Shown here piece after piece: positions 1,320 through 15,827 of a stretch of DNA of 64,000 nucleotides. Every line of letters starts with the position of its first letter. The first letter of the stretch is position 1. The translations under genes and the position numbers were made by a program. The DNA is from Halocalculus aciditolerans (GTDB lineage Archaea > Halobacteriota > Halobacteria > Halobacteriales > Halobacteriaceae): positions 744,001 to 808,000 of the forward strand of contig NZ_BMPG01000001.1 in assembly GCF_014647475.1 (NCBI RefSeq), in the 5' to 3' direction. Under the pieces are notes generated by a model. It was given only the letters and a program-made list of their open reading frames with translations. It searched no databases and was not told where the DNA came from.

Positions 1320-1637
1320 TCCCCACCACAAAAACACTCCCAACCCCGATCAGTTATCAGACACTGCTGCACATATGGGATTGTGATACGTCGTACCGTC
1401 GTTGTGAAGTTAGCCGTTCCTCAAGAACGGCGCGACGACCTCTGCGAAACCACCAAGCGGTTTCGACAAGCTGCCCAACTGGTCGCGGACCGCGCGTTCG
1501 AGCGCAACGACGACGGCTACGTCATCACGTCGAAAACGAAGCTCCACGAACTCACGTACCAGCAGGTCCGCGAAGCGACCGACGGCTTGAACGGGAGTTC
1601 ACCGACAAGCCCTGGCGTTTACGCCGGGGTAGTTGAC
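1320..1637 (+). mobile_element. Internally deleted IS200/IS605 (IS1341-type) element remnant
   Basis: TAGTTGAC occurs at 1312-1319 and again at 1630-1637, enclosing about 318 bases. These hold the start of a tnpB-like gene and, at the right, a hairpin (CCCTGGCG-TTTA-CGCCGGGG, 1610-1629) followed by TTGAC. IS605-family elements cut next to short pentanucleotides (TTGAT/TTGAC in the ISDra2 type) and carry subterminal hairpins, and haloarchaeal IS1341-type elements typically end in such a hairpin. The boundary call rests on the repeated pentamer and the hairpin. Most of tnpB and any tnpA are absent, so the element cannot move by itself. It lies about 100 bases upstream of tRNA-Met. Confidence 0.6.
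1383..1592 (+). pseudogene. tnpB N-terminal fragment (IS1341-type)
   Basis: About 70 codons from the GTG at 1383 read as the N-terminal part of a TnpB/OrfB protein: an RRTVVVKL opening, a helix with FRQAAQLVADRAF, then TSKTKLHELTYQQVREATDGLN. Full TnpB proteins are near 400 residues with a RuvC-like nuclease domain and a zinc finger, and neither is present here. After residue 70 the frame runs into the right-end hairpin, so an internal deletion fused the 5' coding end to the 3' terminus. The frame stays open to 1715 but that tail is non-homologous. It cannot encode an active nuclease. Confidence 0.65.
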
Positions 1638-1743
1638 ACCACGCCTACGCCCCTCCCTCCGCATAAACCCGACGGGGCGCGAGAGGTCCACGCCCGCCCC
1701 GAAAGAGAACCTTAATACGTCCCCTGACCCTACCCGAAACTGA

Positions 1744-1896
1744 GCCCGGGTGGCTTAGTCTGGTCATAGCGCCGCACTCATAGGGTTCAGAGATTCGGTG
1801 CGGCAGCCATTCGGTGGCTGTGCGTGTCCTACGAGGCCCGCCGAGCCTCGAACCTGGGACATGCGGAGGCCGAGGGTTCGAACCCCTCCCCGGGCA
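1744..1896 (+). tRNA. Elongator tRNA-Met (CAU) with 78-nt intron
   Basis: The acceptor stem GCCCGGG (1744-1750) pairs with CCCGGGC (1889-1895), with discriminator A at 1896. The T arm is GAGGG-TTCGAAC-CCCTC (1872-1888). The anticodon stem CCGCA (1772-1776) pairs with TGCGG (1862-1866). Anticodon CAT is at 1779-1781 and A37 at 1782. An intron occupies 1783-1860, in the canonical archaeal position between 37 and 38. Haloarchaeal elongator tRNA-Met genes are known to carry introns of about this size, removed by the splicing endonuclease at a bulge-helix-bulge. CCA is not encoded. The D arm lies at about 1753-1770. Confidence 0.95.
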
Positions 1897-2167
1897 TTTT
1901 CACTACGTCGCTCACCAACGTGAGCGACCGCTCCGTGAAAATGCGTTGCGGGAGGGGGTCGAATCGGGGAGGAGTGCTACGAGAGACGCGAAGCGTCTCT
2001 CGGCATCGCGAGAATCGGAGATTCTCGCTATCCAGCCAGAAGTCACCGACTTCTGGCGACATCACGGGAAACCGACGGTTTCCCGTTAGCAGTCGGAACG
2101 CGTCGCGTTCTGACGACGTGACGAAACGGCTTCCCCGTTTCGAACCACTTCGCTCCGACAGTGGTTC
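1897..2167. repeat. Array of consecutive hairpins directly downstream of tRNA-Met
   Basis: Eight short inverted repeats follow one another with no gene. They are: 1907-1928 (9 bp, CAAC loop, nested inside ATTTTCAC/GTGAAAAT at 1896-1903/1935-1942); 1981-2001 (9 bp, GAA loop); 2008-2028 (9 bp, GGA loop); 2035-2057 (10 bp, ACC loop); 2064-2086 (10 bp, GAC loop); 2092-2114 (10 bp with one G-T, GTC loop); 2122-2142 (8 bp, 5-nt loop); 2142-2167 (8 bp, 10-nt loop). The five with triplet loops start 27, 27, 29 and 28 bases apart. Stem sequences all differ, so this is a repeat of structure rather than of sequence. The region holds no convincing coding frame. Confidence 0.85.
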
Positions 2168-2188: not shown

Positions 2189-2608
2189 TTAGGCGTGGAG
2201 GGCGGCGGTGGGTCGGACGGCGTCGTGTTCGGCTTGCCAGTCGTCGGTTTTGATGCCGGCGACGCGGTCGAGGAGGCGGGCGATGTCTGCGTCGGGGGCG
2301 TAGAATTCGGTGAAGAGGCGCATGACGTCGGCGGCGACCGCGTGGGCGCTGGCGAGGTCGGGGGTGACGGCGAGCTGGAGGGTGGTGTAGTCGCCGGGTT
2401 CGTCGCCCCAGCGGGCGTCGATGCGGTAGCCGCGTTCGTCGTCGGCGACGCGTTCGGGGACGCGGCCGGGGGCGAGGACGAGCCAGAGGTCGAGGTCGAC
2501 GTGTTCGTACTCGACGACGGCGTGCGGGTCGTACTTTCGGCCGACGTCTTCGCCCCAGTCGGGGTCGTCGTGCGTCCAGTTCGGCGGGACGCTCATTCCT
2601 TCGGTCAT
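2189..2608 (-). CDS. Conserved haloarchaeal hypothetical protein
   Basis: A 139-residue acidic soluble protein with no recognised domain name. It has a predicted alternating strand/helix layout: 'VDLDLWLVLAPGRV' (about 37-50), 'GYRIDARWGDEPGDYTTLQLAV' (about 60-81, shown by its ends only), then a helix and a C-terminal Trp-containing helix. There are no Cys residues, signal peptide or membrane segment. The start at 2608 is chosen because a TATA-like GTTTATGC lies about 20-27 bases upstream; an in-frame ATG four codons later is also possible. It stands alone, with its 3' end next to the hairpin array. Confidence 0.65.
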   Translation of the reverse strand: MTEGMSVPPNWTHDDPDWGEDVGRKYDPHAVVEYEHVDLDLWLVLAPGRVPERVADDERGYRIDARWGDEPGDYTTLQLAVTPDLASAHAVAADVMRLFTEFYAPDADIARLLDRVAGIKTDDWQAEHDAVRPTAALHA

Positions 2609-15597: not shown

Positions 15598-15640
15598 TTT
15601 TTCCTCCTCGGGTCGGCGAAGCCGACCCGAGGAGGAAAAA
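15598..15640. terminator. Perfect 20-bp hairpin with GAA loop after guaAb
   Basis: Bases 15598-15617 are an exact reverse complement of 15621-15640, with loop GAA. The left arm starts with five T and the right arm ends with five A, so either strand's transcript ends the stem in a U or A tract. It lies between the convergent guaAb and the lipoprotein gene ending at 15828, fitting a bidirectional terminator. The triplet-loop design is the same as in the array behind tRNA-Met. Confidence 0.75.
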
Positions 15641-15827
15641 TCTGGACCAAAAACTGCCGCGAACTCGCTCCGCTCGTTCGCGGGTGCGCCCGCCCGAGAG
15701 CGACTGCCCCGCGACCGCTCCGCAACCGCCCTGTGAACCGATTCAGCTCCCTCACCGCTCTGCTTACCGCTATCGCCACCGTTCACCTCGGCGACGTCCG
15801 TCGTCTTGTGTGGCCGTTGACTGCCGG

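Follow-up and report, generated by a model that had tools for sequence, protein, structure and literature searches.

Nested insertions of a short double-hairpin repeat as the probable origin of a hairpin row behind a tRNA-Met gene in Halocalculus aciditolerans

The row of hairpins behind a tRNA-Met gene of H. aciditolerans is very probably DNA into which copies of a short, non-autonomous mobile repeat, termed the double-hairpin element (DHE) below, have inserted one after another. The element would insert at a pyrimidine–purine (YR) dinucleotide (CA/TG, CG or TA) and duplicate it, so that each event adds a net 57 bp. Later units would enter either at the duplicated dinucleotide beside an older unit or between the hairpins of a different repeat, and repeated insertion would produce hairpin rows with a period of 27–29 bases and alternating linkers. 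In the window (the whole 64,000-nucleotide stretch analysed), two tandem units appear to have entered a P3-type linker between the tRNA-Met gene and a converging gene. Movement presumably proceeds via a hairpin-forming DNA strand, with some enzyme acting in trans. The repeat is dispersed, precisely inserted, flanked by matching dinucleotides, nested, found in tandem and present in open reading frames, while the word 'mobile' rests on these insertion patterns because the mobilising enzyme was not found.

The original prediction described five successive hairpins with 9–10 bp stems, 3-nt loops and a spacing of 27–29 bases, and all five were located at the expected positions (Table 1). The fold of the array region is far stronger than that of shuffled sequences (z = -7.9 as RNA, -7.3 as DNA). 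The proposed genome scan for stems of 8–11 bp with 3-nt loops proved to be the right test. In 400 kb of the H. aciditolerans genome (G000), 7 clusters of two or three hairpins like those of the row were found versus 0 in a Markov control, and chance does not explain the row. The prediction that the stems share no sequence was wrong, since the hairpins have a common consensus of about xCxxGAAnnC-NNN-GnnTTxxxGx, which leaves only the loop and the inner two or three pairs unconstrained, and their linkers are of two alternating types. Rather than a single structure with unrelated stems, the array consists of copies of a dispersed repeat, nested one within another.

Table 1. Features of the tRNA-Met locus and the nested array (window positions; stem length in bp/loop length in nt given for hairpins)
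Feature	Positions	Strand	Basis
Intron-containing tRNA-Met gene, adjoining the array on the left	1744..1896	+	Rfam RF00005, 53 bits
Native tRNA-Met 3' flank with hairpin 1907-1928 (9/4), outside the array	1897..1943	+	81-85% identity beside the second tRNA 3'-end copy in L002/L003
Left half of host two-hairpin repeat P3: GGAGGAGTGCTA and hairpin 1980-2002 (10/3)	1968..2003	+	Ends match unfilled copies L034, L033
Left flanking dinucleotide CA	2004..2005	+	Unfilled P3 copies have a single CA: CTCTCGG-CA-TGACGAAA
Unit A (54 bp), hairpins 2008-2028 (9/3) and 2035-2057 (10/3)	2006..2059	+	Two-hairpin model R2 (26.4 bits, minus strand; in the whole-genome search 62.7 bits, plus strand, G000:C1:746004-746061)
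Dinucleotide CA common to units A and B	2060..2061	+	Sequence
Unit B (55 bp), hairpins 2064-2086 (10/3) and 2092-2114 (10/3, one G-T)	2062..2116	+	R2 match, 73.5 bits, E 3.9e-18
Right flanking dinucleotide CG (CA in unfilled copies)	2117..2118	+	Comparison with L033/L034
Right half of host repeat: hairpin 2122-2142 (8/5) and AACCACTTCGCTCC	2119..2156	+	End matches L033/L034
Gene for a conserved unnamed protein, oriented towards tRNA-Met and used as synteny marker	2189..2608	-	Region kept after tRNA-Met, array-free, in L004-L007

Units A and B stand in tandem inside the linker of another two-hairpin repeat (1980–2142), whose outer hairpins and ends identify it as P3. P3 copies with an empty linker occur elsewhere in the genome: L033 and L034 have CTCTCGG-CA-TGACG at this point, where the window has CTCTCGG-CA-(unit A)-CA-(unit B)-CG-TGACGAAA. 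The three further hairpins that had been predicted to flank the row are present, including one at about 2141–2166 (8-bp stem, 10-nt loop, read by eye). The leftmost, at 1907–1928, does not belong to the array: in other genera it is conserved beside a second copy of the tRNA end, which makes it part of the native tRNA flank. The reported position behind a tRNA-Met gene is confirmed by the Rfam match to an intron-containing tRNA, which ARAGORN missed; the converging gene gave no match in a Pfam search. In related genera the tRNA-Met gene is followed by the same gene in the same order and without the array. Absence from sister strains was one part of the refutation set out in the original prediction, and the array is indeed absent at this locus in related genera, although insertion, not chance, explains that absence. 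At six loci of relatives (L002, L003, L004, L008, L010 and L021), a second tRNA-Met 3'-end copy lies 140–200 bases downstream of the gene, an arrangement that integration at a tRNA attachment site would leave. Just upstream of tRNA-Met, window positions 1590–1640 hold a remnant (GACAAGCCCTGGCGTTTACGCCGGGGTAGTTGAC) that looks like the right-hand terminus of IS1341/IS605-type elements from haloarchaea.

When the array was used as a query against G000, eleven further matches were recovered, which are hairpin pairs or rows with common linkers. A covariance model of one hairpin (R1, 28 members) detected about 60 hairpins at about 40 places in this 3.38 Mb genome, and the reading of all R1 loci identified the hairpin pair as the repeating unit, with several subfamilies (Qa, Qb, P1, P2 and P3). 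The unit of about 55 bp has the layout (YR)-TC-hairpin-linker-hairpin-GA-(YR), with 9–10 bp stems, 3-nt loops and a linker of 5–6 nt; unit lengths are 51–61 positions including the dinucleotides, and the ends consist of TC/GA alone. In a gapless alignment of 31 units from across the class, 98.5% of pairs are standard, with 145 two-sided changes and G-U in 4 of 620 cells, which bears out the earlier proposal that structure is what selection or a generating process acts upon. As these units had been picked as hairpins, a second test selected candidates by the 5' arm and flanks only; it replaced a permissive pair-type count that had mixed in chance hairpins. The hairpin was formed in 70/70 cases, with 97–99% Watson–Crick pairs and G-U in 7 of 700 cells. 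Among 121 clustered 3-nt hairpins of other genomes, C-G closes the loop in every one, and 58% of loops are GNA or its complement (about 12.5% by chance); the corresponding count in the arm-conditioned set is 38/70. C(GNA)G is a very stable DNA mini-hairpin loop, and this stability, together with the scarcity of G-U, points to a role of the unit as DNA.

Insertion is documented by filled and empty sites, the latter being found in other species or in paralogous copies, not in strains of one species. Locus L254 reads GGGGATACAG-CG-(55 bp)-CG-CCGCACAG, while L258 reads GGGGATACAG-CG-CCGCACAG, a net difference of exactly 57 bp; L252 is an empty site like L258 with one difference, and L244 and L256 form another filled/empty pair, also of 57 bp. 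Both sets stand in IS200/IS605-type elements of relatives. Within G000, the filled site at C1:881858 (GGAC-CA-(unit)-CA-AAAAC) corresponds to an empty site at window positions 15638–15654 (GGACCAAAAAC), and the filled site at C1:107418 to its own neighbouring empty duplicate. Between genes at window positions 15598–15640 lies a perfect palindrome of 20 bp that has a GAA loop and runs of T/A and resembles a two-way terminator; sequences related to it stand at unit insertion points elsewhere. Units lie near IS ends at L246, L254, L243, L252, L244 and Halorubrum loci, and other targets are used too.

The flanking dinucleotides are identical in 81 of 110 units versus 44 in shuffles, with one orientation counted per unit (after the both-strand count was redone), and agreement peaks at the exact register; the units in this set are not independent of one another, and the favoured dinucleotide varies between subfamilies. 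The dinucleotide is YR on the right in 107 units and on the left in 98. A 2-bp target duplication is the simplest reading, although in any single event it looks the same as an element that begins with that dinucleotide. Two details count against the model: two empty sites read TA where the filled sites read CA, and the window has CG in place of CA as its right flank. IS30 creates a 2-bp target duplication, prefers palindromic targets and its own ends, and forms tandem copies; it encodes a DDE transposase and has long terminal repeats. The DHE resembles insertion of this type in its putative 2-bp duplication, palindromic targets, affinity for its own ends and tandem copies.

Twelve units fall within reading frames that show coding signal to either side of the unit, and eleven of the twelve are on the gene's own strand. 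The peptide read from them is ..S(S/A)(N/S)(Q/R)NAxRS(G/D)D.., also about ..S.xQNAxRSGD, and the insertions add 57 or 51 bp, i.e. 19 or 17 residues; that the length is divisible by three in all 12 is partly forced by the one-open-frame criterion and is not independent evidence. Homologues without the unit confirm the insertion in an acyl-CoA synthetase (exactly 19 residues), an ABC transporter (the G009 gene spans 57 bp less) and a cytochrome P450. Other unit-bearing genes, assigned by Pfam/PDB matches, encode AroE, M19 and M20 peptidases, an Obg-like GTPase, diphthine synthase and dihydroorotase, and their alignments agree with an extra segment less cleanly. The diphthine synthase genes of two species (L109 and L114) carry a 51-bp unit at one common place, so that either at least one insertion was inherited or the site was hit repeatedly.

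A scan with a strict pattern of one genome per species, covering approximately 85,000 species, recovered 46 stretches, all from Halobacteria and from about twenty genera. Matches to the two-hairpin model R2 apparently occur in 35 of the 37 sampled genomes of the order, among the matches listed, and outside the order in 3 of about 180 genomes of the phylum, all of one genus. These three (G122, G131 and G138; family f24, genus g65), the only genomes of the phylum sample outside the order to give two-hairpin matches, have 3–9 each. The strict pattern had no match in viral contigs, nor did blastn find one in plasmids. Most units stand at the 3' end of a gene or where two genes converge, and divergent gaps almost never hold one (1/33 versus 78/222); this context rests on a crude home-made gene caller. 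In Halocatena pleomorpha, five copies of one gene-like repeated region (L137, L140, L147, L157 and L164) hold the same unit, as if it had spread together with its host sequence.

The original prediction offered a long terminator, an RNA scaffold, a protein-binding array or repeated inverted duplication, and so omitted the nested insertion of mobile repeats that we consider best. A structured RNA or long terminator at tRNA-Met, with hairpins kept for processing, termination or scaffolding, would account for the strong predicted fold and the preference for gene 3' ends and converging gaps. Nevertheless, it is very improbable given that the array is absent from the locus in related genera, that units also lie inside protein genes and IS elements, and that the near absence of G-U is easier to square with palindromic DNA than with an evolving RNA helix. 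The hairpins might instead have arisen in place by mutation, through template switching at inverted repeats. In G066, G241 and G029, a larger dispersed palindromic scaffold was observed (L223–L242), and among its 20 paralogous copies the loops differ in a manner that looks like inversion (GAA/TTC, GGA/TCC, AAA/TTT) while the stems stay identical; arms also change together, as such a process would predict. In the same copies, however, whole hairpin modules come and go at set positions within a common scaffold, linkers and termini are common across the class, and the exact 57-bp filled and empty sites are hard to reconcile with mutation in place, which makes it extremely improbable as the origin, although such processes may shape loops and arms after insertion. 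The chance of a decayed CRISPR-like or tandem-repeat array is practically negligible: regular spacing would suit it, but here the hairpin unit and linker are conserved, the variable part lies inside the stem, and units occur singly or paired at scattered sites.

As to the enzyme, one rival reading has a Y1 (HUH) transposase of the IS200/IS605 type move the palindromes in single-stranded form, in the manner of REP/RAYT or PATE; the units are palindromic, dispersed, located at gene 3' ends and often in or at the ends of IS200/IS605-type elements, their loops are often C(GNA)G, and their number correlates weakly with that of Y1 genes (rank correlation, rho 0.22, 98 genomes). This is still unlikely, as no Y1 transposase (PF01797) was found in G000 or in the unit-rich genomes G043, G052, G057, G066 and G084, and a duplicated dinucleotide is not expected from HUH transposition, which to our knowledge leaves no target duplication. 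In a MITE of a known transposon, the terminal inverted repeats are those of the transposon that provides the enzyme; among possible sources, the IS110, IS630 and serine recombinase families gave no match in G066, G241, G043 and G084, while G000 has one serine recombinase. Quite unlikely, too, is movement without a dedicated transposase, in which a hairpin-forming single-stranded fragment would be captured at a host-made two-nucleotide staggered break, for example by topoisomerase VI, which leaves 2-nt 5' overhangs, and fill-in would duplicate the dinucleotide. If true, a host-driven insertion pathway would have seeded hairpin rows and in-frame peptides through a whole archaeal class.

Judged against the open-access literature, the DHE is best filed as a new variety of non-autonomous palindromic mobile DNA, with PATE and SMR-A as the nearest haloarchaeal precedents, followed by REP/BIME and RPE. 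All of these share habits with the DHE, and for each at least one defining feature is either missing from the DHE or ambiguous in it. SMR-A of Haloquadratum walsbyi measures about 110 bp, has prominent inverted terminal repeats and does not duplicate its target, and its families were described in one species and lack mutual sequence similarity (Dyall-Smith et al. 2011, PMC3119063). Both repeats are haloarchaeal, short and transposase-free and insert into palindromes of IS605-type elements, whereas the DHE is about half as long, ends in TC/GA, has two separate hairpins and a matching flanking dinucleotide, and is found class-wide and also in protein genes. PATE (palindrome-associated transposable elements) have ends related to IS605 ends, leave no target duplication and share near-terminal palindromes with the DHE, and a core-deleted 52-bp PATE of two ends only has been described (PMC3119063); by description, the DHE is set apart by its insertion into IS605-type elements. 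The GTAG/CGTC-tagged palindromes of bacteria (REP/BIME) are likewise short, dispersed, arranged in pairs or arrays, located at gene 3' ends and sometimes intragenic, the CGTC family having 4–5 nt loops and 8–9 bp stems (PMC3733652). Unlike these, the DHE has 3-nt loops, 9–10 bp stems, a fixed pair with a 5–6 nt linker and, in place of the tag at the hairpin foot, terminal TC/GA with YR flanks; CGTC/GACG occurs only where the dinucleotide is CG, and the associated Y1 (TnpA-REP) transposase is not required, being absent from G000 and several unit-rich genomes. The RepRanger paper included no haloarchaeon among its genomes. Rickettsia palindromic elements (RPE) are a functional analogy, as they also stand in frame in unrelated protein genes and encode a recurrent peptide, but they are about 150 bp long and rickettsial (PMC10969869), whereas the DHE is a haloarchaeal repeat that contributes 57 or 51 bp and has the habit of nesting and standing in tandem. 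Mitochondrial double-hairpin and repetitive hairpin elements (PMC2800124) are, by description, short mobile two-hairpin repeats as well, although of organelle genomes.

If the proposed reading is right, the question arises which agent moves a pair of DNA hairpins of 55 bp, duplicating 2 bp, where the genome lacks the usual recombinases. One small repeat would then explain haloarchaeal hairpin rows that resemble unknown RNAs or binding arrays, as well as the recurrent extra peptide in many haloarchaeal proteins, including conserved enzymes, and in-frame palindromic insertion, known from Rickettsia, would extend to Archaea.
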